A program made the translations under genes and the position numbers. Shown one piece after another: positions 6,428 through 34,451 of a stretch of 34,451 bases of DNA (the stretch's first letter is position 1; every line of letters begins with the position of its first letter). The notes beneath the pieces are model-generated. The model did no database searches, was not told where the DNA came from, and saw nothing but the letters and a program-made list of their open reading frames with translations. This stretch comes from SAR116 cluster bacterium MED-G06 (lineage in GTDB: Bacteria > Pseudomonadota > Alphaproteobacteria > Puniceispirillales > Puniceispirillaceae), in the NCBI GenBank assembly GCA_002457745.1, contig NTKV01000006.1:1-34451 (forward strand), written 5' to 3'.

Positions 6428-7761
6428 GCCAGCACTCCGACGATGCTGTTCTGCCTTGCCTCGGTCACCCGGCAGGTGACGATGCTGCCGACCAGTCCGG
6501 GCTCTGCCTCGATATTCACCGCCTGCATGTAGGGGCTGCGTCCCGCCACCTGGCCCGGACGCCCGCCAGCACGTTCGATCAGCACGTTCATTTCGCGACC
6601 TTCAGTGGATTTGTTGAAAGCATATTGCTGTGCGTTCAGGAGCTGTTGCAGCGCCTCGAGCCGTTCCGCCTTCACCTGCTCCGGCACCTGCACCTCTTCG
6701 GTTGCTGCCGGGGTCCCGGGGCGCGGGCTGTATTTGAAGGAATAGGCCGAGGCATATCCCACCCGGTCGACAAGCGACAGGGTATCGGCAAAATCACGGT
6801 CGCTCTCACCCGGGAAGCCGACAATGAAGTCGCCGGACAGCGCGAGATCGGGGCGCGCCTCGCGCAATCGGTCGATGATCCGGAAATAGGCATCACGGTC
6901 ATGCCGCCTGTTCATCGCCTCAAGCACCCCGTTGGATCCAGCCTGCACAGGAAGATGGAGATAGGGCATCAGCGCCGGCACATCGCGGTGCGCCAGGATC
7001 AGGTCCTCTTCCATGTCCAGCGGATGCGAGGTGGTATAGCGAATACGATGAAGGCCATCGATCTCGGCAAGTTCACGGATCAGGCGGGCCAGGCTCCAGA
7101 TGCTGCCATCGGCTGCCTCACCATGATAGGCATTCACATTCTGCCCGAGCAGTGTCAGCTCACAACTTCCCGAAGCAACAAGACGGCGGGCTTCTTCAAT
7201 GACGCCGTCCACCGGCCGGGAAAATTCCGCACCGCGGGTATAGGGCACCACACAGAAGGCACAGAATTTGTCACAGCCTTCCTGAACCGAAAGAAAGGCG
7301 GCCGGGCCACGTGGCGCATGTTCTCCCGGAAGCTGATCGAACTTGATCTCTTCGGGGAAATCGGTGTCGATGGCGCGTTCGCGCGCTGCCGGATCGACGC
7401 GGCTGACAAGTTCGGGAAGGCGGTGATAGGTCTGCGGACCGACAACGATGTCGACCCAGGGCGCGCGCCGGGTGATTTCCTCACCTTCCGCCTGCGCCAC
7501 ACAGCCGGCAACGGCGATGGTGACATTGCGGCCCTGCTGGTCGCGCGCGCGATCCTTCATCATCCGCAGTCTGCCAAGTTCGGAGAAAACCTTTTCCGAA
7601 GCCTTCTCGCGGATATGACAGGTGTTGAGGATGACCATGTCGGCCCCCTCGGCTTCACCCGTCGGCGCGTAGCCGAGCGGCGCAAGCACGTCGGTCATGC
7701 GGTCGGAATCATAGACATTCATCTGGCACCCGTAGGTTTTGATGAACAGCTTCTTTGTCAC
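6424..7761 (-). CDS. miaB: tRNA-2-methylthio-N6-dimethylallyladenosine synthase
   Basis: 445-aa [22 protein letters not shown]; radical SAM motif '[15 protein letters not shown]'; '[10 protein letters not shown]'; C-terminal TRAM-like end. Overlaps phoH by 4 nt. Confidence 0.97.
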
Positions 7762-7825
7762 GATCGCGGCTCTTTTCTGAAAGCGGTGGTTACGCCGGTT
7801 GTTCTATGCCGGAGACGAAGGCGGG

Positions 7826-8293
7826 TCAAGGCACTGGCTGACGCAGCTGACGGCGCATCACAATGGCATCGACAAGCGCACCGCCACGCCGGTAATAGCC
7901 GGTGCGCCGGCCAACCTCGGTAAAACCGAGGCGATGATAGAGTGCCAGCGCCGCCACATTGTCGATCGCAACCTCGAGACAGATGTCCTCACACCCATCC
8001 TGTTTCAGGCGCGCCAGAACATGATCCAGCAGCCGCGTTGCCAGGCCGCGCCGTTCGGCATCGGGTGCGGTGGCGATGGACACCAGATCGGCACCTCCGC
8101 CACCTGCAAGGCACAAGGCATAGGCCAGCGGGTCTGCGTCCAGGTCGTCTTCCGGGAGCATCACAAACCCGACAAAGGAGGGACGTGCTGCCAGATCACG
8201 AAGCTGGCGGAGTGTCATTGGCGAGTCGAAGCGCATCGCCTCAAGCGTGGCGATGGCGGCAAGATGACCGGGCGTCAGCGGTGCCGCAATCAC
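7826..8293 (-). CDS. rimI: Ribosomal-protein-alanine N-acetyltransferase (GNAT)
   Basis: 155-aa GNAT ORF with 'DAERRGLATRLLDHVL' and 'CLEVAIDNVAALALYHRLGFTEVGRRTGYY'. Adjacent to tsaB. Confidence 0.88.
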   Translation of the reverse strand: MIAAPLTPGHLAAIATLEAMRFDSPMTLRQLRDLAARPSFVGFVMLPEDDLDADPLAYALCLAGGGGADLVSIATAPDAERRGLATRLLDHVLARLKQDGCEDICLEVAIDNVAALALYHRLGFTEVGRRTGYYRRGGALVDAIVMRRQLRQPVP

Positions 8294-22862: not shown

Positions 22863-23855
22863 TTACAGCTTTTCAGCCATCACCATCGATGCGATATCGG
22901 CCTCGGGCCGCGCGCCGATATGTGAAATCACCTCGCCTGCGGTCAGGCTGGCAATGGTTCCTGACGCCAGCGCGTCACGGCCATTGGTGCGCCCGTAGAG
23001 ATAGCCGGCGGCAAACAGGTCACCGGCACCGGTGGTGTCCTCGACCGGACCAAGTGGACGTGATGCCACCTCGTGCCGGGAGCCACCATGGCCGATAAAC
23101 GCCCCGGCAGCGCCGCGCGTGATCACCACTTCTGACACCTGCTTGCACAGCGTTTCCGTGGCAGTGGCGACATCACTGTCGCACAGGCTGGCCGCTTCAT
23201 CCTCATTGGCGAACAGAATATCCACATGGTCATGCACGAAACGCGACAGCGCTTCGCGGTGGCGCTCGGCGCACCAGGGGTCGGACAGTGACAGCGAGAC
23301 CTGCACGCCGTGATCGCCTGCAAGCCGTGCGGCATGGGCGAAAATCTCCGGCCCTGCCGGCGCATCGAACAGATAGCCTTCGAGATAGATCACTTTCGAA
23401 GCAGCCACTTCCTGCGGACGGATGTCGTCCGGCTGGAATTCGATACAGGCGCCAAGATGCGTGTTCATCGACCGGATGGCATCCGGCGTCACCAGAATGA
23501 TCGACGAGGCGGTTGGCGCACCGTCGGTCTGTGGCGGGGTGGTGAACTGGACACCGGCAGCGCCGATATCGCCGATGAAGGAATGGCCAAGCACATCATC
23601 ATGGACGCGGCCGGCAAACCCGGCCCGCCCGCCAAGCGCGGCAACGCCGACAGCGGTGTTGGCTGCCGAGCCGCCGGAAATCTCGCGGGCATCGGTGATG
23701 TCGGCATAGAGCGCCGCCGACCGCGGCGCGTCGACAAGGTTCATCATGCCCTTGCCTATGTCGCGTGCCTCGAGAAACGCGTCGTCACAGCGGGCAAAAA
23801 TATCAACAATGGCATTGCCGACAGTCAGGACATCAAGAGGCTGGGACATCTGCAT
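22863..23855 (-). CDS. PfkB-family kinase, adenosine-kinase-like
   Basis: 330-aa ORF: 'DVLTVGNAIVDIFARCDDAFL', 'SGGSAANTAVGVAALGG', 'MNTHLGACIEF', 'EDTTGAGDLFAAGYLYG'. Confidence 0.85.
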   Translation of the reverse strand: MQMSQPLDVLTVGNAIVDIFARCDDAFLEARDIGKGMMNLVDAPRSAALYADITDAREISGGSAANTAVGVAALGGRAGFAGRVHDDVLGHSFIGDIGAAGVQFTTPPQTDGAPTASSIILVTPDAIRSMNTHLGACIEFQPDDIRPQEVAASKVIYLEGYLFDAPAGPEIFAHAARLAGDHGVQVSLSLSDPWCAERHREALSRFVHDHVDILFANEDEAASLCDSDVATATETLCKQVSEVVITRGAAGAFIGHGGSRHEVASRPLGPVEDTTGAGDLFAAGYLYGRTNGRDALASGTIASLTAGEVISHIGARPEADIASMVMAEKL

Positions 23856-24957: not shown

Positions 24958-25620
24958 TCAGGTAAAAACCTTGTCCTTGAACAGGCACAGCGCGGCGATG
25001 CTGCAGCTTCCGCAATCCGGTTTGCGGGCCTTGCAGACGTACCGGCCATGCAGGATCAGCCAGTGATGCGCCCCCTTTTTCCAGACCTCGGGAACGCGGC
25101 GCACCAGCTCCACTTCGACAGCGTCAGGTGTTTTGCCAGGGGCCATGCCGGTGCGGTTGCCAACACGGAAAATATGGGTGTCGACAGCAATGGTCGGCTG
25201 CCCGAATGCCTCGTTCAGAACGACATTGGCGGTCTTCCTGCCAACCCCCGGAAGCGCCTCCAGCGCAGCGCGGTCATCCGGAACAATGCCGTCATGCGCC
25301 TCGATCAGGAGTTCTGACAGGCGGTGCACATTCTTCGCCTTGGTGTTGAACAGCCCGATGGTGCGGATGTGATGGGCAATGCCGTCGACGCCAAGCGCCA
25401 CCATCGCCTGCGGCGTGGCAGCGGCGGCAAACAGCCCCTTTGTCGCGCGGTTCACCCCGACATCCGTGGCCTGCGCCGACAACACCACCGCCACCAGAAG
25501 CGTATAGGGGCTGGAATAGGTGAGTTCGGTTTTCGGATCAGGCAACTGGTCGGCCAGCCGCGCGAAACAGGTTTCAATGTCGGCAAGCTTCATCTTGCGG
25601 GGGCGCTTCGGGGTGCTCAT
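24958..25620 (-). CDS. nth: Endonuclease III
   Basis: From ATG at 25620: MSTPKRPRKMKLADIETCFARLADQLPDPKTELTYSSPYTLLVAVVLSAQATDVGVN..., 'LPGVGRKTANVVLNEAFGQPTIAVDTHIFRV', C-terminal 4Fe-4S Cys cluster 'CKARKPDCGSCSIAALC'. Confidence 0.95.
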   Translation of the reverse strand: MSTPKRPRKMKLADIETCFARLADQLPDPKTELTYSSPYTLLVAVVLSAQATDVGVNRATKGLFAAAATPQAMVALGVDGIAHHIRTIGLFNTKAKNVHRLSELLIEAHDGIVPDDRAALEALPGVGRKTANVVLNEAFGQPTIAVDTHIFRVGNRTGMAPGKTPDAVEVELVRRVPEVWKKGAHHWLILHGRYVCKARKPDCGSCSIAALCLFKDKVFT

Positions 25621-25744: not shown

Positions 25745-26620
25745 ATGACTGTCTTCAATCTAGGCTCCATCAATATCGACCTTGTCTACACGGTGCCACA
25801 TTTCCCGGCCCCGGGAGAGACACTGACGACGCTTGACCACCAGCGCACACTTGGTGGCAAGGGGGCCAACCAGTCGATCGCGCTGGCCCGTGCCGGCGGC
25901 GATGTGCGCCATATCGGTGCGACCAACCGCGAAGATGAATGGCTTCGTGCTGAAATGCGTGGTGCCGGAGTCGGGATGTCCGGCGTCCAGGACAGCAGCC
26001 TTGCCACCGGCCATGCCATTGTGTCGGTGTCAGTCGATGGCGAGAACCAGATCCTGCTGTTCCCGGGCGCCAATCACGATATCGACATGGATGACGCGAA
26101 TGCCACGCTTGATCAGGCTGGCGACGGCGACTGGGCGCTGCTCCAGAACGAGACCAATGGGGGCGCGGAGTTTGTTGCTGCAGCGCGCCACCGTGGGCTG
26201 AAGCTTGCCTACAGCGCTGCCCCCTTTGATGCCGAAATCACCGCCGGGTTGCTGCCGCATACCGATCTCCTGATCGTCAATGAAGGCGAGGCAGAGGCTT
26301 TGGCAGCCATGCTTGGCAAACCCGCCACCGAGGCTGGCATCCCGCACCTGGTCATCACCCGCGGTGGTGACGGGGCCGACTATACCGGCGAGGCCGGCAG
26401 CTTTCACCAGCCTGCCTTTGACGTCGATGTGGTCGACACCACCGGTGCTGGCGACTGTTTCTTCGGCTATTTTCTGGCCGAGCTTGCCGTCGGGGTCGCG
26501 GTGCCACAGGCGCTACGACTGGCCAGTGCTGCCGGCGCGCTCCATGTCACCCGGCAAGGGGCCGGTGCGGTGATCCCAGATCGCGCCGATGTCGAGGCCT
26601 TTCTGGCAACGGCAACCTGA
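25745..26620 (+). CDS. PfkB-family kinase, ribokinase-like
   Basis: From ATG at 25745: MTVFNLGSINIDLVYTVPHFPAPGETLTTLDHQRTLGGKGANQSIALARAG...'VVDTTGAGDCFFGYFLAEL'. Confidence 0.88.
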   Translation: MTVFNLGSINIDLVYTVPHFPAPGETLTTLDHQRTLGGKGANQSIALARAGGDVRHIGATNREDEWLRAEMRGAGVGMSGVQDSSLATGHAIVSVSVDGENQILLFPGANHDIDMDDANATLDQAGDGDWALLQNETNGGAEFVAAARHRGLKLAYSAAPFDAEITAGLLPHTDLLIVNEGEAEALAAMLGKPATEAGIPHLVITRGGDGADYTGEAGSFHQPAFDVDVVDTTGAGDCFFGYFLAELAVGVAVPQALRLASAAGALHVTRQGAGAVIPDRADVEAFLATAT

Positions 26621-26664: not shown

Positions 26665-27624
26665 ATGGTACAGAAACTCATCATCGACACCGATCCGGGC
26701 ATTGATGACGCGATGGCCATCCATATGGCCTTTGCCGATGCCCGCATCGAGGTTGTCGGACTGACCACCATCTTTGGCAATGTCACCACGAAGCAGGCCA
26801 CACGCAATGCGCTGCACCTCTCACAGATGGCGCATTACCCGGTTGATGTGGCGCATGGCGCGGACCGGCCGCTGACGCGCGACCCGCACCCGCCAGCTGA
26901 TTTTGTTCACGGCCCCGAGGGCTTTGGCGGGCTGCCCGCGCCGGACGTCGAAACAGCACCCGATCCGCGCGATGCCGCAAGGTATCTGTGCGAGACCTGC
27001 GCTGCCGCACCCGGCGAGATCATCATCTGCGCTGTCGGTCCCTTGACCAACCTGGCTGCCGCGCTTGCGCTCGACCCGGACATCACCCGTACCGCGGCGC
27101 GCGTGGTGGTGATGGGCGGCAGCGCCGCACGCCACGGCAATGTCAGTGACTGTGCCGAGGCGAACATCTGGAACGACCCGCACGCCGCAGATGCGGTATT
27201 CGCCGCAGACTGGGACGTCACCATGGTGGGGCTTGATGTCACCGAGAAAACACAATGCACGCCTCAGGATTTCACCGATCTCGCCAAGGCGTCTCCGATC
27301 ATCGGCGGATTTCTGCAACAGGCAGCGGATTTCTATTTCGACTTTCACGAGGCCAAGACCGGAACGCGATCCTGTTTCATGCATGATCCGTCGGCCATTC
27401 TGGCGATCACCGATCCGGCATTGTTCGGCTTTCAGACCACACCGATCTCGGTGGTCTGCGAGGGCGAGGAAACCGGTCGCACGATTGCTGGCCCGGCAAC
27501 CGGCCGGCGCGCCACACATGTGGCAATGACCGTGGACAGCCAGGCGGCGCGACAACGTTTTCTTGGCCTCGTCAGGGCGGCCGACCATATGGCGACAGAC
27601 AGAATGGCACGTGATAACTGCTGA
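26665..27624 (+). CDS. Nucleoside hydrolase (inosine/uridine-preferring family)
   Basis: 319-aa ORF: 'KLIIDTDPGIDDAMAIHMAFAD', 'VVGLTTIFGNVTTKQATRNALHL', 'AVGPLTNLAAALALDPDI', 'VVMGGSA'. Confidence 0.93.
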   Translation: MVQKLIIDTDPGIDDAMAIHMAFADARIEVVGLTTIFGNVTTKQATRNALHLSQMAHYPVDVAHGADRPLTRDPHPPADFVHGPEGFGGLPAPDVETAPDPRDAARYLCETCAAAPGEIIICAVGPLTNLAAALALDPDITRTAARVVVMGGSAARHGNVSDCAEANIWNDPHAADAVFAADWDVTMVGLDVTEKTQCTPQDFTDLAKASPIIGGFLQQAADFYFDFHEAKTGTRSCFMHDPSAILAITDPALFGFQTTPISVVCEGEETGRTIAGPATGRRATHVAMTVDSQAARQRFLGLVRAADHMATDRMARDNC

Positions 27625-27693: not shown

Positions 27694-28524
27694 ATGAAGG
27701 TCGAAACTGTTGATTACAAGGCCGCTTACGCCGCCGAAACGCTGGCGCGATCGCTGCGTGACACCGGGTTTGCGGTACTTGCCAATCACCCGATCACGCC
27801 AGACCGGATCGACGCGATTTACGGTGCCTGGGGAGACTTCTTTGCGGGAGACGGGAAATTCGATTTCGCCGTGCAGCCGCCAGCGCATGACGGCTATTTC
27901 GCCTTTCGTTCAGAGAACGCCAAGGATTCTCCGGTGAAGGACCTGAAGGAATTCTTTCATGTCTATCCCGGATGCCGCCTTCCCGCCGATATCGAGGCGC
28001 TGACTCGCCAGATCTATGCCGATCTCGACAATCTTGGGCGCGAGCTTCTGGGCTGGATCCAGGCGCAGGCACCTGCCGAGGTTACGGACGATTTGTCGAT
28101 GCCGCTGGACAAGATGATGGAGGGAAGCGACCAGAGCCTTCTTCGTATCCTGCATTACCCGCCTGTCGAGACCGCCGAGCCGGGCGCCATCCGCGCCGCC
28201 GCGCATGAAGACATCAACCTGATCACATTGCTGCTGTCCGGATCAAAGCCGGGTCTTCAGGCGATGGATGCCGACGGCAACTGGCATGATGTGGCCTGCG
28301 ACCCCGGCATGATCACGATCAATAACGGCGATATGCTGGCGATGGCCACCGGCGACCACTTCCCGTCGACGACGCACCGGGTGACCAATCCCGATGCCGG
28401 CCAGAATGTGTCGCGCTACTCCATGCCGATGTTCCTTCACCCGCGCCCGGATGTGCCGCTTCGTCCGGACATGACAGCAGATCAGTATCTTCAGAAGAGG
28501 CTTCGCGAAATCGGCCTGAAATAA
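27694..28524 (+). CDS. Fe(II)/2-oxoglutarate-dependent oxygenase, isopenicillin N synthase-like family
   Basis: 276-aa ORF: 'LARSLRDTGFAVLANHPI' N-terminal, proximal triad 'AAHEDINLITLLLSG' (His at 28204-28206), distal 'STTHRVTNP' (His at 28375-28377), 'SRYSMPMFLHP' (Arg at 28414-28416, RxS 2OG-binding motif). Confidence 0.88.
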   Translation: MKVETVDYKAAYAAETLARSLRDTGFAVLANHPITPDRIDAIYGAWGDFFAGDGKFDFAVQPPAHDGYFAFRSENAKDSPVKDLKEFFHVYPGCRLPADIEALTRQIYADLDNLGRELLGWIQAQAPAEVTDDLSMPLDKMMEGSDQSLLRILHYPPVETAEPGAIRAAAHEDINLITLLLSGSKPGLQAMDADGNWHDVACDPGMITINNGDMLAMATGDHFPSTTHRVTNPDAGQNVSRYSMPMFLHPRPDVPLRPDMTADQYLQKRLREIGLK

Positions 28525-28660
28525 GCCGTGCAGGGCGCAAAGAAATTGGACTGGTTCCCAAAAAGACGGTAGGAATCAATGGGGATGAAAGGTGTCGCAA
28601 AAAGACGCCGCACCATCAAAACGCCGGGCCTTTGCCGGGCGCTTTACAGCTACGGGAGAA

Positions 28661-29692
28661 ATGAAGATGTTTTTGAAAAAGATTGCTCTGACTTCAGGCG
28701 TTGCGGCAGCGTTCATGCTGGCCTCGGCTTCGGCGGCCACCGCCTTCACCGCCTGCCAGGTCACAGACGTTGGTGGCATTGACGATTCCGGCTTCAACGA
28801 GACAGCCTGGAAGGGCGTCCAGGACGCGATGAAGGATTTCGGCGTTGAAGGCCGCTATCTGGAATCGCAGTCGGAGACGGATTACGAGCCGAACCTGAAC
28901 GCACTCCTTGACGCAAAGTGCGATGTCATCATATCGGTCGGCTTCCTGATGGCCGATGCCACCGCCAATTCGGCGAAGGCCAACCCGGGCAGCAAGTTCT
29001 CGATTGTCGACATGGCCTATGACCCGACCATCCCGAATGTCCTCGGCCAGGTCTATGCCACCAACGAAGCCGCCTTCATGGCAGGCTATCTGTCGGCAGG
29101 CATGTCGAAGACCGGTGTTGTCGGCACGTTTGGCGGCATCAACATCCCGCCTGTCACCGCCTTCATGGACGGCTTCTATTACGGCGTTGCCTATCACAAC
29201 AGCCAGAAGGGCACCGATGTGAAGGTTCTCGGCTGGAACCCGGACAGCAAGGATGGCCTGTTCACCGGCAATTTCGAAAGCCTCGATGATGGCCGTGCCT
29301 ATGCCCAGAACCTGTATGATGAAGGTGCCGATGTGGTGATGCCGGTTGCCGGCCCGGTCGGCCTTGGCTCGTCGGCTCTGGCCATGGAGCTTGGCACCGA
29401 CGCGCTGAAGATCGTTGGGGTTGACGCCGACATGACGCAGACCGACTCCGGCAATGCCGAAGTGTATCTGACCTCGGTGGTGAAGCGCATGGACTCCACC
29501 GTGAAGGAAGTCATCAAGCGCGCCATGGACGGCAGCTTCGAAGGTGGCCTGATGGTCGGAACCGTTGCCAATGGTGGTGTCGGTATCGCGCCTTACCACA
29601 GCTTTGACAGCGTCATTCCAGCCGGTCTGAAGGCTGAGGTTGAAGAGATCAAGGCTGGCATCATCGCCGGCACCGTCAACGTCGGCGGCTGA
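28661..29692 (+). CDS. BMP-family ABC transporter substrate-binding protein (nucleoside/purine binding type)
   Basis: Signal peptide MKMFLKKIALTSGVAAAFMLASASAATA, 'VTDVGGIDDSGFNETAWKGVQDAMKDFGVEGRYLESQSETDYEPNLNALLDAKCDVIISVGFLMADAT'. Confidence 0.92.
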   Translation: MKMFLKKIALTSGVAAAFMLASASAATAFTACQVTDVGGIDDSGFNETAWKGVQDAMKDFGVEGRYLESQSETDYEPNLNALLDAKCDVIISVGFLMADATANSAKANPGSKFSIVDMAYDPTIPNVLGQVYATNEAAFMAGYLSAGMSKTGVVGTFGGINIPPVTAFMDGFYYGVAYHNSQKGTDVKVLGWNPDSKDGLFTGNFESLDDGRAYAQNLYDEGADVVMPVAGPVGLGSSALAMELGTDALKIVGVDADMTQTDSGNAEVYLTSVVKRMDSTVKEVIKRAMDGSFEGGLMVGTVANGGVGIAPYHSFDSVIPAGLKAEVEEIKAGIIAGTVNVGG

Positions 29693-29704
29693 TCCTGACA
29701 AACA

Positions 29705-29745
29705 CCCGTTGCCGCCGGTGTCTGCCTGTGGCAACGGGTTTTTTT
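29705..29745 (+). terminator. Rho-independent terminator between SBP and ATPase genes
   Basis: CCCGTTGCC (29705-29713), GGCAACGGG (29730-29738), then TTTTTTT (29739-29745): 9-bp perfect stem. Confidence 0.9.
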
Positions 29746-29758
29746 GTGGGTTGCTTTC

Positions 29759-31282
29759 ATGAATATCGAGATTCGGGGTATCAGCAAGCGTTTCGGCCCG
29801 GTGCAGGCCAACCAGGATATTGACCTGGACATCCGCGCTGGCGAGGTGCTTGGCCTTCTTGGCGAGAATGGCGCCGGGAAATCCACCCTGATGAATGTAT
29901 TGTCCGGGCTTTACCGACCTGATTCCGGCGACATCATCATTGATGGCACAGCGGTGTCCTTTGACGGGCCTGGCGACAGCATCGCCGCCGGAATCGGCAT
30001 GGTGCACCAGCATTTCATGCTGGTGCCTGTTTTCAGCGTTGTCGAGAATGTCATCCTCGGGGTCGAGCCGACCGGCGCAGCCGATTACCTCGATCTGGAT
30101 GCTGCCCGCGCGCAGGTGCAGCAGATCAATGACAGCTATGGCATGGAGGTGCCAAGCGACGCACTGATCGAGGATCTTCCCGTCGGCATCCAGCAACGCG
30201 TGGAAATTCTCAAGGTTCTGTTCCGCTCCGCCGATGTTCTGATCCTTGACGAGCCGACCGCCGTTCTCACCCCGCAGGAGGTCGAGGCCTTTTTCGGTAT
30301 CGTGCGCGCCCTTCGCGATGCGGGCAAAGCCATCGTCTTTATCACCCACAAGCTTCACGAGATTCTCGAGATTGCCGACCGCGTCAGCGTTCTGCGCCAG
30401 GGCCGGATTGTGGGCAATGGCGTGCCGTCCGAATTCTCCGAGGCCGATCTTGCCGAGATGATGGTGGGCCGGCCGGTCAGCTTTTCGGTTGGCCGTGAGG
30501 CTGCCACACCCGGTCAGCCTGTTCTTGAGCTTGCCGATGTCTCGCTTCTCGATGCCGGGCTGGAAGCGCGTCTGCAGTCCATCAGCATGACGGTGCGCGC
30601 CGGCGAGATTGTCGGTGTTGCAGGGGTTCAGGGCAATGGCCAGACCGAGCTTGTCGAGGCGATCACCGGCCTTGCCTCGGTCAATGCTGGCAGGGTCACC
30701 TTCAACGGCATCGACATCACCGCGACGAGCGTCCGCCAGCGGCACCGCATGGGAATCGCCCATATTCCCGAAGACCGCTTGAAGTCGGGCATGGTGGCAG
30801 GCTTTACAGTGGCAGAGAACATGGTGCTGAACCGCTATTATGACGAGCGTGTCGCGCGTGGTGTGGTGATCGACTGGTCGCGCGCCGAGGAGCAGGCCGC
30901 AGCCGCCTGTCTGAAATTCGATGTGCGCACACCAAGCGTGTTCCTCGGGGCCGGCAGCCTGTCCGGCGGCAACCAGCAGAAAATGGTTGTGGCCCGTGAG
31001 CTGGAACGTGATGTGCGCCTTGTCGTGGCGTCGCAGCCAACCCGCGGGGTGGATGTCGGGTCCATCGAATTCATTCACCAGCAGTTGATGGCCTGCCGCG
31101 ATGCCGGCAACGCCGTTCTGATCATCTCTTCCGAACTGGACGAAATTCTCGACCTGTCCGACCGCATCTATGTGATGTTCGAAGGCCGTGTGACCGCCGA
31201 ATTCGACAATCAGGACAGCTGTGCCGACCGCAATGCCATCGGCCTTGCCATGGCGGGTGTGAACAGGACCGAAGCCGCATGA
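29759..31282 (+). CDS. ABC transporter ATP-binding protein (tandem NBDs, nucleoside/sugar type)
   Basis: 'MNIEIRGISKRFGPVQANQDIDLDIRAGEVLGLLGENGAGKSTLMNVLSGLYRPDSG', second NBD 'GVAGVQGNGQTELVEAITG', 'LSGGNQQKMVVARELERDVRLVVASQPTRGVDVGS'. Confidence 0.95.
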   Translation: MNIEIRGISKRFGPVQANQDIDLDIRAGEVLGLLGENGAGKSTLMNVLSGLYRPDSGDIIIDGTAVSFDGPGDSIAAGIGMVHQHFMLVPVFSVVENVILGVEPTGAADYLDLDAARAQVQQINDSYGMEVPSDALIEDLPVGIQQRVEILKVLFRSADVLILDEPTAVLTPQEVEAFFGIVRALRDAGKAIVFITHKLHEILEIADRVSVLRQGRIVGNGVPSEFSEADLAEMMVGRPVSFSVGREAATPGQPVLELADVSLLDAGLEARLQSISMTVRAGEIVGVAGVQGNGQTELVEAITGLASVNAGRVTFNGIDITATSVRQRHRMGIAHIPEDRLKSGMVAGFTVAENMVLNRYYDERVARGVVIDWSRAEEQAAAACLKFDVRTPSVFLGAGSLSGGNQQKMVVARELERDVRLVVASQPTRGVDVGSIEFIHQQLMACRDAGNAVLIISSELDEILDLSDRIYVMFEGRVTAEFDNQDSCADRNAIGLAMAGVNRTEAA

Positions 31283-32475
31283 CCCGCGCCCCATCCGACA
31301 CTGCCCCAGATGCTGCCCCAGATGCTGCCCCAGACACTGCCCCAGACACTGACAGCCGTCTTCGCGCCTTGCTGGCACCGACCATCGCCACCCGCGGTGA
31401 TCTTCGTGAAGTTGTGCTGATCCCGCTGTTGGCGGTCTTTCTGGCGCTTGTCATCGGCGCGCTGATCATGATGGCCACCTCGGTGGCCCCGGCCACCATC
31501 CTGAAGAGTTTCGTCGCGATGGCGGACGGGTCGCTTGGCTCGATGAACGCCATTTCCGAAACGCTGACAGCCTCGATCCCGCTGGTCATGGCCGGGCTCG
31601 GGATCGGGCTTGCCTTCCGCGCCGGGCTGTTCAATATCGGGGCCGAAGGACAGATGGTGGTCGGCGGCCTTGCCACCGCCATTGCCGCCTTCAGTTTCAC
31701 CGGACTGCCGATGATCCTGCATCTGCCGCTGGCACTTCTGATCGGGATGTCGGTGGGGGCGGTCTATGCCGCCATCGCCGGCGTGCTGCGCGCCACCACC
31801 GGGGCGCATGAGGTGATCTCGACGATCATGCTCAACCTGATTTCCTTCCGGCTTCTCGACTATCTTCTCCGCCAGCCCTACATCCAGAAGGAGGGCCGGG
31901 CCGACCCGATCTCCAGGGCTGTTCTGGAAACTGCCGAGCTGCCGCGTCTTCTGACCTTTCTTGATCCGAACCTGAGGCTTCATCTCGGCCTTTTCATCAT
32001 GCTGGCAGCCGTGGCCATCGTCTGGTGGCTGCTGTTCCGCTCGAAACTGGGATTCGCCTTCCGGATTTCCGGCGAGAACCCGGGGGCGGCCCGCTATGCA
32101 GGCATCCGCGCCGGGCTGACCGTGGTGCTGGCGATGGCGATTGCCGGGGCACTGGCGGGTCTGGCCGGCGCCACACAGGTCAGTGGCGTGCTTGGCCGTG
32201 CCACACCGGGCTTCACTGCCGGCATCGGTTTTGACGCCATCGCCGTGGCGCTTCTTGGACGCTCGCATCCGGTCGGCATCCTTCTCGCCGGGCTGCTGTT
32301 CGGCGCGCTCGAGGCAGGTGGTCGCCAGATGCAGGTGGATGCCGGCGTGTCGATTGACATGATCAGCATCATCCAGGCGCTGATCATCATTTTTGTCGCG
32401 GCACCGCTGCTGATCAAACGTCTCTTCCCGCCGCTGTTCCGAAACCGCGTCACAGCAGGAGGCGGTCATGAATAG
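31279..32475 (+). CDS. ABC transporter permease (BMP-type nucleoside importer, subunit 1)
   Basis: 398-aa multi-pass ORF: 'GLGIGLAFRAGLFNIGAEGQMVVGGLATAIAAF', 'TTGAHEVISTIMLNLISFRLLDYLL'. ATGA overlap with the ATPase gene. Confidence 0.92.
   Translation: MTRAPSDTAPDAAPDAAPDTAPDTDSRLRALLAPTIATRGDLREVVLIPLLAVFLALVIGALIMMATSVAPATILKSFVAMADGSLGSMNAISETLTASIPLVMAGLGIGLAFRAGLFNIGAEGQMVVGGLATAIAAFSFTGLPMILHLPLALLIGMSVGAVYAAIAGVLRATTGAHEVISTIMLNLISFRLLDYLLRQPYIQKEGRADPISRAVLETAELPRLLTFLDPNLRLHLGLFIMLAAVAIVWWLLFRSKLGFAFRISGENPGAARYAGIRAGLTVVLAMAIAGALAGLAGATQVSGVLGRATPGFTAGIGFDAIAVALLGRSHPVGILLAGLLFGALEAGGRQMQVDAGVSIDMISIIQALIIIFVAAPLLIKRLFPPLFRNRVTAGGGHE
31297..31350 (+). repeat. 12-bp in-frame tandem repeat (about 4.5 units) at the permease N-terminus
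   Basis: gacactgcccca/gatgctgcccca/gatgctgcccca/gacactgcccca/gacactgac, encoding DTAP-DAAP-DAAP-DTAP-DTD. Confidence 0.85.
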
Positions 32476-33721
32476 CCAGACGACAGCCGCCGCACCGCGC
32501 GCCATAGACTGGCGCGCCTCGATCACTGGCGGGGCGCTGATCCTGCTGGCGCTGGTCATCGCCTTTCTTCTGGATTCGCCCTGGGATTCGGTCTCGACCT
32601 TCAAGATTTCGCGGCCACGCGATGTCTGGGTGGTTGGCCACCTGACGTTGCCAAGCCAGTGGTTCACCACCATCGCAGCCGTGGTCCTCGCCTTTCTGGG
32701 AACAAGACTGTTTCTGAAAGGGGGTGGGCGCTGGACGACGCTGTCGCTTGCCGTTGCGCTTGTCATTCTGGCGATGGCCTTTCTGGTCTGGGCCACTGCC
32801 GGCAAGTCGATCTCGCTGACCGGCATGCTGCAGGCGACGGTGGTCCGGGCTGTGCCGATCGCGCTTGCCGCGCTCGGCGGTATCCTGTGTGAACGTGTCG
32901 GGGTGATCAACATCGCCATCGAGGGCATGCTGCTGGCGGGGGCCTTTGCCGGGGCGCTGTTCGGATCCCTGATGGGGGGCTGGGCCGGCATCATCTGCGC
33001 CATGCTGATCGGCGGGGTGTTTGGCCTCTTGCTGGCGGTGCTGGTGATCACCTACCGGGTCGACCAGATCATCGCCGGGGTGGTGATCAACCTGTTCGTA
33101 CTGGGGCTGACCTCCTATGTCTCGAGTCAGGTTTTTGCGGAATTCCGCTGGCTGAACAAAGCCACACCGTTCCGCGCCTTCAAGATTCCGGTGCTTGGAG
33201 ACATCCCGCTGGTCGGACCGGTGCTGTTCAACCAGAACCTGTTTGTCTATGGCGCGCTGATCCTTGTGACGCTGTCGACCTATTATCTGTTTCACACACG
33301 ATTCGGGCTTCGTGCCCGCGCTGTTGGCGAGCACCCGCGCGCCGCCGACACGCTTGGCATCGATGTCATCAAGACACGGTATGCCCATGTCATCGCCGCC
33401 GGCATGGTGGCAGGATTTGGTGGGGCATGGTTTACCCTGGGATCGGTCGGCAGGTTTGACGAGAACATGACGTTCGGGCGCGGCTTCATCGGTCTGGCGG
33501 CGATGATCTTCGGGCGCTGGCACCCGCTTGGTGCGCTGGCCGCGGCGCTGATCTTCGGCTTTGCTGATTCCCTGCAGCAGAAACTGTCGATCCTGAACAC
33601 CCCGATCCCGTCGGAATTCCTGTCGATGGCGCCTTACATCGCGACGATTGTGGTGGTTGCCGGGCTGGTTGGCCAGGCGCGCCCGCCAGCCGCCATCGGC
33701 AAACCCTATGTCAAGGACTGA
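32468..33721 (+). CDS. ABC transporter permease (BMP-type nucleoside importer, subunit 2)
   Basis: 417-aa multi-pass ORF: 'GILCERVGVINIAIEGMLLAGAFAGAL', 'LRARAVGEHPRAADTLGIDV', 'RGFIGLAAMIFGRWHPLGAL'. Overlaps the upstream permease by 8 nt. Confidence 0.92.
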   Translation: MNSQTTAAAPRAIDWRASITGGALILLALVIAFLLDSPWDSVSTFKISRPRDVWVVGHLTLPSQWFTTIAAVVLAFLGTRLFLKGGGRWTTLSLAVALVILAMAFLVWATAGKSISLTGMLQATVVRAVPIALAALGGILCERVGVINIAIEGMLLAGAFAGALFGSLMGGWAGIICAMLIGGVFGLLLAVLVITYRVDQIIAGVVINLFVLGLTSYVSSQVFAEFRWLNKATPFRAFKIPVLGDIPLVGPVLFNQNLFVYGALILVTLSTYYLFHTRFGLRARAVGEHPRAADTLGIDVIKTRYAHVIAAGMVAGFGGAWFTLGSVGRFDENMTFGRGFIGLAAMIFGRWHPLGALAAALIFGFADSLQQKLSILNTPIPSEFLSMAPYIATIVVVAGLVGQARPPAAIGKPYVKD

Positions 33722-33740
33722 CCCTTCAGGAGAGGCCTTC

Positions 33741-34154
33741 ATGACAGACATGACTGAGCAGGAAGAGCGGCTGGTCGCTGCCGCAATTGCCGCGATGGGT
33801 CAGGCCTACGCCCCCTATTCGAAGTTTCCGGTCGGCGCCGCCATCCTCGATGAGGGTGGCGGCATCCATAGCGGTGCCAATGTCGAAAATGCCGCCTATC
33901 CGGTTGGCAATTGTGCCGAGGCCAGCGCCATCGCCGCCATGGTGATGGCCGGTCGTGGCCGGATCAACGCCATCGCGGTTGCCGGTGGTGATGGCAAGAT
34001 GCTGTGCACCCCCTGCGGGGCATGCCGCCAGCGGATTCGTGAATTCGCCGCACCGGACACGCCGGTGCTGATCAGCGGGCCCGACGGGCTGCAACGCAGG
34101 TTCACCCTGGAAGAGCTTCTTCCGGAAAGCTTTGGTCCGGAAAATCTTGGCTAA
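33741..34154 (+). CDS. cdd: Cytidine deaminase
   Basis: From ATG at 33741: 'AYAPYSKFPVGAAILDEGGGIHSGANVENAAYPVGNCAEASAIAAMV', zinc motif 'CTPCGACRQRIREF'. Confidence 0.94.
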   Translation: MTDMTEQEERLVAAAIAAMGQAYAPYSKFPVGAAILDEGGGIHSGANVENAAYPVGNCAEASAIAAMVMAGRGRINAIAVAGGDGKMLCTPCGACRQRIREFAAPDTPVLISGPDGLQRRFTLEELLPESFGPENLG

Positions 34155-34160
34155 CGCCGG

Positions 34161-34451
34161 TCAGTCGGTGCCGTAAATCCGGTCGCCAGCATCACCAAGG
34201 CCAGGCAGGATATAGGCCTTGTCATTCAGCTCGCGGTCCATCGCCGCGGTGATGATCGGGATATCGGGATGCGCCGACTGCAGGGCCCGGACCCCTTCCG
34301 GTGCTGCCACAAGGCAGGAAAAGACGATATCCCTGACCCCCATCTCGCGGAGCTTGTCGGCGGCCATGATGGCGCTGCCACCGGTCGCCAGCATCGGGTC
34401 GCCAAGGATCACCTGTCTGTCACCAATGTCCGAGGGAAGGCTGCTGTAATA
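34161..34451 (-). CDS. upp: Uracil phosphoribosyltransferase, C-terminal part (5' end outside the window)
   Basis: Minus-strand open frame to the window edge: [96 protein letters not shown]. Confidence 0.94.

Follow-up and report, generated by a model that had tools for sequence, protein, structure and literature searches.

The oxygenase gene and its operon

In the present study, we analyzed a stretch of 34,451 nucleotides (hereafter, the window) from the genome of SAR116 cluster bacterium MED-G06 (G000; contig NTKV01000006.1). The assembly is 67% complete, and among named genomes it is closest to assemblies of the SAR116 cluster and of related alphaproteobacteria. On the plus strand of the window, genes for a ribokinase-like kinase, a nucleoside hydrolase (NH), an Fe(II)/2-oxoglutarate (2OG) oxygenase, a BMP-type binding protein, an ABC ATPase, two permeases, and cytidine deaminase (cdd) follow one another in this order. 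The PfkB/ribokinase-like gene lies at 25745 to 26620 (the open reading frame begins at 25520, and the start was placed from relatives). The IU-type NH gene (26665 to 27624) encodes the motif DTDPGIDDA and matches PF01156 with 286 bits, and the oxygenase gene (27694 to 28524) encodes 276 amino acids. The importer consists of a BMP/PnrA-type substrate-binding protein (28592 to 29692; PF02608, 176 bits), an ATPase (29744 to 31282), and permeases 1 (31279 to 32475) and 2 (32468 to 33721), both matching PF02653. The cdd gene is located at 33738 to 34154 (open reading frame from 33648, start likewise inferred; NF004064/TIGR01354 above cut-off). Since the gaps flanking the NH and oxygenase genes are short (44, 69, and 67 bp), we read the genes from the kinase to cdd as one operon. 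The 3' part of upp, for uracil phosphoribosyltransferase (34166 to 34451; PF14681, 127 bits), which is cut by the end of the window, lies convergently to cdd on the minus strand and therefore outside the operon. Thus, an earlier note on this DNA was right in placing the NH, the BMP-type importer, the upstream ribokinase-like gene, and the downstream cdd in the same direction as the oxygenase, but not upp. In relatives, a thymidine kinase gene is found beyond upp. A second PfkB-family kinase gene, at 22863 to 23855 on the minus strand, lies near the operon and is conserved in several SAR116 relatives.

A SAR116 cluster for pyrimidine use, in which genes for thymidine kinase, a transporter, and uridine ribohydrolase occur together with upp and cdd, has been described (PMC11698098) and is apparently the locus of the window. 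The word "oxygenase" is absent from the main text of that paper, and the oxygenase gene thus seems to have been left without comment.

The oxygenase matches PF03171 at 63.7 bits (cut-off 23) and DIOX_N (PF14226) at 37.3 bits, above its cut-off; these were its only Pfam matches, and no family was matched in NCBIfam. The product length and the intact HxD...H and RxS motifs reported in the earlier note were borne out. Iron ligands 1 and 2 are encoded in the H171-E-D173 codons (28204 to 28212) and ligand 3 in the H228 codon (28375 to 28377), whereas the R241-Y-S243 codons (28414 to 28422) specify the site for the 2OG C5-carboxylate, aligned to R286/S288 of thymine 7-hydroxylase (T7H). The residues H171, D173, H228, and R241 do not vary in an alignment of 140 orthologues, and S243 hardly varies. 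Judged by its sequence, the protein is an intact Fe(II)/2OG oxygenase, and turnover of 2OG is predicted. The AlphaFold model is confident (pLDDT 88.9), and its least confident part is residues 71 to 80, a stretch in which E74 and A76 are invariant and K77 nearly invariant. This stretch may be a lid that is put in order by the substrate.

Relationship to structurally solved and characterized enzymes

The closest solved protein in the sequence search was SO_2589 of Shewanella oneidensis (PDB 3ON7; E-value 9.8e-82), followed by CC_0200 of Caulobacter (3OOX; 1.2e-35) and Neurospora T7H (1.6e-17). SO_2589 belongs to the same orthologue group as the window protein, shares its invariant residues, and matches it over residues 1 to 275; in the profile search, its E-value was 3.5e-124. 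A 2023 review counts 3ON7 among the enzymes whose functions are "still undefined" (PMC10467617). Our literature search on SO_2589 found nothing relevant, and a further one found no paper linking isopenicillin N synthase (IPNS) with nucleoside hydrolase. A Foldseek search with the AlphaFold model gave the same order (TM 0.91 for 3ON7, 0.82 for 3OOX, and about 0.76-0.80 for T7H). CC_0200 is about 35% identical to the window protein, has longer insertions, and is likewise uncharacterized. With a profile of 35 members, the first characterized enzyme was T7H (1.2e-27), and the ethylene/succinate-forming enzyme (EFE; 6e-23) and plant enzymes came behind it. Assignments to IPNS, ACC oxidase, EFE, or gibberellin oxidases were rejected, since all of these are weaker than T7H by profile and fold; IPNS itself ranks far below 3ON7, 3OOX, T7H, EFE, and the plant enzymes. 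Our search for a close homologue with a characterized, unrelated function found none. T7H, one of the two fungal enzymes to which the earlier note had pointed, was the nearest characterized enzyme by both sequence and fold.

The similarity to T7H raises the possibility of base oxidation, with hydroxylation of a methyl group or another substituent carried by a pyrimidine base or by a modified nucleoside. Neurospora crassa T7H (5C3O-5C3S) and the window oxygenase have their iron and 2OG sites in common, and the T7H substrate residues Arg190 and Phe292 have retained counterparts in R151 and F247. However, an Arg and a Phe at these positions look common in the wider family, the overall identity is about 24%, and the C-terminus of the window protein is shorter. 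Furthermore, T7H Tyr217, which lies over the base and is Phe or Trp in some T7Hs, corresponds to I174 in 139 of the 140 orthologues, and the position of Asn87, which forms a hydrogen bond to the base, is occupied variably by D, A, or S, in an N-terminal region where the alignment is weaker. Identity with T7H in the strict sense was therefore rejected in spite of R151 and F247. The oxygenase may act in a T7H-like manner, yet it is not T7H, and we regard oxidation of the base as possible but somewhat unlikely.

Genomic contexts of the orthologues

We surveyed 80 named loci, 60 further sampled loci, and 40 loci from one gammaproteobacterial order. Many arrangements occur across Proteobacteria and Bdellovibrionota, in which the oxygenase gene adjoins NH and ribokinase genes, BMP importers, PsuK/PsuG, or udk-nupC. 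The order rbk-NH-oxygenase-importer-cdd is found in SAR116, Amylibacter and its relatives, Pacificispira, and others, so that gene order is conserved across alphaproteobacteria, a point that the earlier note had put forward for testing. In Leucothrix, NH-rbk is divergent from the oxygenase, and in Rhodoferax, rbk-NH-oxygenase faces a BMP importer and PsuK/PsuG, in which the gene with a strong PF04227 match is, in our reading, PsuG. Distant orthologues show the orders NH-rbk-oxygenase (L130) and oxygenase-rbk-NH (L170). An importer and the oxygenase occur without NH in L085, L099, and L142, and udk-nupC-oxygenase is found in the related genomes of L135, L184-L190, and L192. On the tree of the 140 orthologues, 13 changes are required to account for the NH-linked state, of which at least 10 are imposed by well-supported branches, although exact placement is unsure in this quickly made tree with some long branches. 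The linkage to NH thus has a history of several gains, or of retention with several losses. Because distant relatives repeatedly adjoin nucleoside genes, the enzyme probably oxidizes a nucleoside for recycling. The active-site residues are unchanged across all of the genomic contexts, which suggests one reaction in all orthologues.

Two close loci (L031 and L032) have an oxygenase 86-87% identical to that of the window, an NH about 75% identical, and a cdd product above 80%. In contrast, the BMP importer that occupies this slot has a binding protein with only 31% identity to its counterpart in the window's importer (28592 to 33721), whereas the importers of other members of the genus are 77-85% identical to the latter. 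From these sequences, we conclude that the importer has been exchanged in place between the same flanking genes (as seen among L031, L032, L003, and L004), which fits a shared substrate class.

Two side observations concern further oxygenases. In L177, a larger IPNS-like oxygenase of 331 amino acids (7173-8165, minus strand; PF14226 and PF03171) is divergent beside another nucleoside hydrolase gene, with genes for a BMP importer and an amidohydrolase close by; a second PF03171 branch may likewise be linked to nucleoside genes. A tandem pair of oxygenase paralogues is present in L153 (G753:C8:47637-49369).

As for the remaining contexts, the scan for neighboring nucleoside genes was negative for 89 of the 140 orthologues; udk and nupC were outside its gene list, so that the udk-nupC locus L135 is counted among the 89. 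The annotated records of Vibrionaceae and Aeromonas showed no nucleoside genes near the match. Genes for SUF or ISC iron-sulfur assembly adjoin orthologues in 11 loci (L056-L058, L063, L083, L087, L104, L122, L125, L127, and L128) that fall in unrelated groups. SUF operons are involved in L056-L058 and in Neomarinimicrobiota-like loci, some of the oxygenase genes standing before SufB operons; in L122 the gene lies between those for HscA and ferredoxin, and in L125, L127, and L128 before ferredoxin. The oxygenase gene directly follows that for the tRNA dihydrouridine synthase DusA in L136, L137, L156, and L159, with a guanine deaminase gene following in L156, and lies between TusE and an IscA-like gene in L150 and L151; DusA and TusE both belong to tRNA uridine modification. 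Some further orthologues adjoin unrelated genes. In the Neomarinimicrobiota-like loci L083, L087, and L104, a dCMP-deaminase-like gene is directly upstream of the oxygenase.

A reaction on nucleosides would also have to make sense at these Fe-S and tRNA-gene loci. One possible explanation is that the protein is a housekeeping oxygenase without nucleoside specificity, acting in RNA modification, metabolite repair, or an iron-related process, and was drawn into salvage operons in some lineages only. The orphan, Fe-S, and tRNA-gene contexts do exceed the nucleoside ones in our sample, and the gene is retained in genomes of about 1.2 Mb. However, the nucleoside linkage occurs in more than one part of the tree, with differing gene orders, and under a simple random model the probability of at least six independent chance placements near NH is, roughly, 8e-7. 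Together with the joint retention or loss of the oxygenase and NH in SAR116 described below, this makes a housekeeping role unlikely in our view.

Co-occurrence with the nucleoside hydrolase

Among 61 genomes of the SAR116 family, 40 have both the oxygenase and the PF01156 NH and 17 have neither; the four discordant genomes comprise two with the oxygenase only and two with NH only (Fisher test, 5e-11, a value that ignores relatedness). In G032, one of the oxygenase-only genomes, the gene is 226 bases from a contig end, and its upstream gene may therefore be missing from the assembly. In genus g6, 15 genomes have neither gene, and G025 has both. In a sample of 387 mostly near-complete alphaproteobacterial genomes, the oxygenase was present in 10 of the 14 with the operon-type NH against 16 of the 373 without it (Fisher test, 2.5e-10, again ignoring relatedness). 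Thus, the two genes do occur together at the genome level; the earlier note had named a lack of co-occurrence with nucleoside genes as grounds for refutation. At the four loci with the operon-type NH and no oxygenase (G387, G450, G321, and G315), inspection by eye revealed no PHYH-type oxygenase in its place.

Possible reactions and biological role

We propose that the enzyme is a nucleoside-directed Fe(II)/2OG oxygenase serving nucleoside import and salvage, a reading from sequence and gene context to which we assign a probability of about 0.7; a role in nucleoside metabolism is thus likely. NH and uridine kinase generally prefer ribonucleosides. In the proposed scheme, nucleosides would enter the cell through the BMP-type importer, among them 2'-blocked, 2'-deoxy, or base-modified ones that would be poor substrates for NH, or for uridine kinase in other bacteria. 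Oxidation by the oxygenase would turn one class of such nucleosides into a normal ribonucleoside, and NH would cleave this product to give the base and ribose; phosphorylation of the ribose would then fall to the ribokinase-like protein, and recovery of the pyrimidine to cdd and upp. A nucleoside substrate is our inference, as are all of the later steps. The neighborhood and the co-occurrence back the part of the earlier note that concerns import and salvage, whereas its specific proposal, a 2'-hydroxylation acting on deoxynucleosides, stays one candidate among several. As to the chemistry, we slightly favor, at a little under even odds, a reaction at the 2' position of the ribose, by which refractory nucleosides would become usable substrates of NH or uridine kinase; a reaction other than this or base oxidation is a minority possibility.

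A pyrimidine deoxynucleoside 2'-hydroxylase would convert thymidine and deoxyuridine to ribonucleosides cleavable by NH. In the SAR116 family, deoC was found in none of the 61 genomes (control genomes were positive) and no pyrimidine-nucleoside phosphorylase scored above cut-off, so that deoxynucleosides would be left without the usual breakdown route. Such a reaction also fits the release of thymidine by Prochlorococcus, reported together with the clustered pyrimidine-use genes of SAR116 (PMC11698098). However, deoC is weakly informative, because it is absent from the whole SAR116 family, including genomes without the oxygenase, and thymidine kinase, present in relatives, already uses thymidine. 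In 49 further genomes that carry the oxygenase, deoC is present in 15 and NH in 29, and only G067 has both, a pattern confounded with taxonomy; the 15 would not need the hydroxylation step. The earlier proposal of this reaction suits the SAR116 family but not a fair part of the other oxygenase-bearing genomes, and we consider it quite improbable.

An alternative is 2'-O-demethylation, in which 2'-O-methyl nucleosides from RNA turnover would yield ribonucleosides and formaldehyde and feed NH or uridine kinase. The same chemistry was described in 2025 for the 2OG-dependent demethylases FJS/PHYHD1, which free nucleosides for salvage and thus possibly fill the same role (PMC12709175). It would be useful to cells with NH and to those with the deo pathway alike, which matches the mixed genomes, and it suits the udk-nupC-oxygenase operons; PsuK/PsuG beside the Rhodoferax oxygenase also suggests salvage of modified RNA nucleosides. 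2'-O-demethylation therefore fits at least as well as deoxynucleoside 2'-hydroxylation. However, FJS/PHYHD1 belong to another Pfam family, PF05721, which the window oxygenase does not match, so that a separate origin would be needed, and some nucleoside hydrolases accept 2'-O-methyl nucleosides directly. We hold this reaction, too, to be distinctly unlikely when taken singly.

Tentatively, the SO_2589/3ON7 family may be a further independent family of nucleoside-oxidizing 2OG enzymes beside T7H and PHYHD1/FJS, through which 2'-modified or 2'-deoxy nucleosides become accessible to salvage by hydrolysis; SAR116 bacteria, with neither deoC nor a pyrimidine phosphorylase, would in this way use nucleosides derived from DNA or modified RNA as ribose and base. 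The proposed role in nucleoside salvage gives a testable function to 3ON7, an enzyme solved yet unexplained, whose family occurs in several classes and phyla of bacteria. Should the proposal hold, the salvage of nucleosides in bacteria would gain an oxidative entry step, which may partly explain how abundant ocean bacteria use the nucleosides released by their neighbors.
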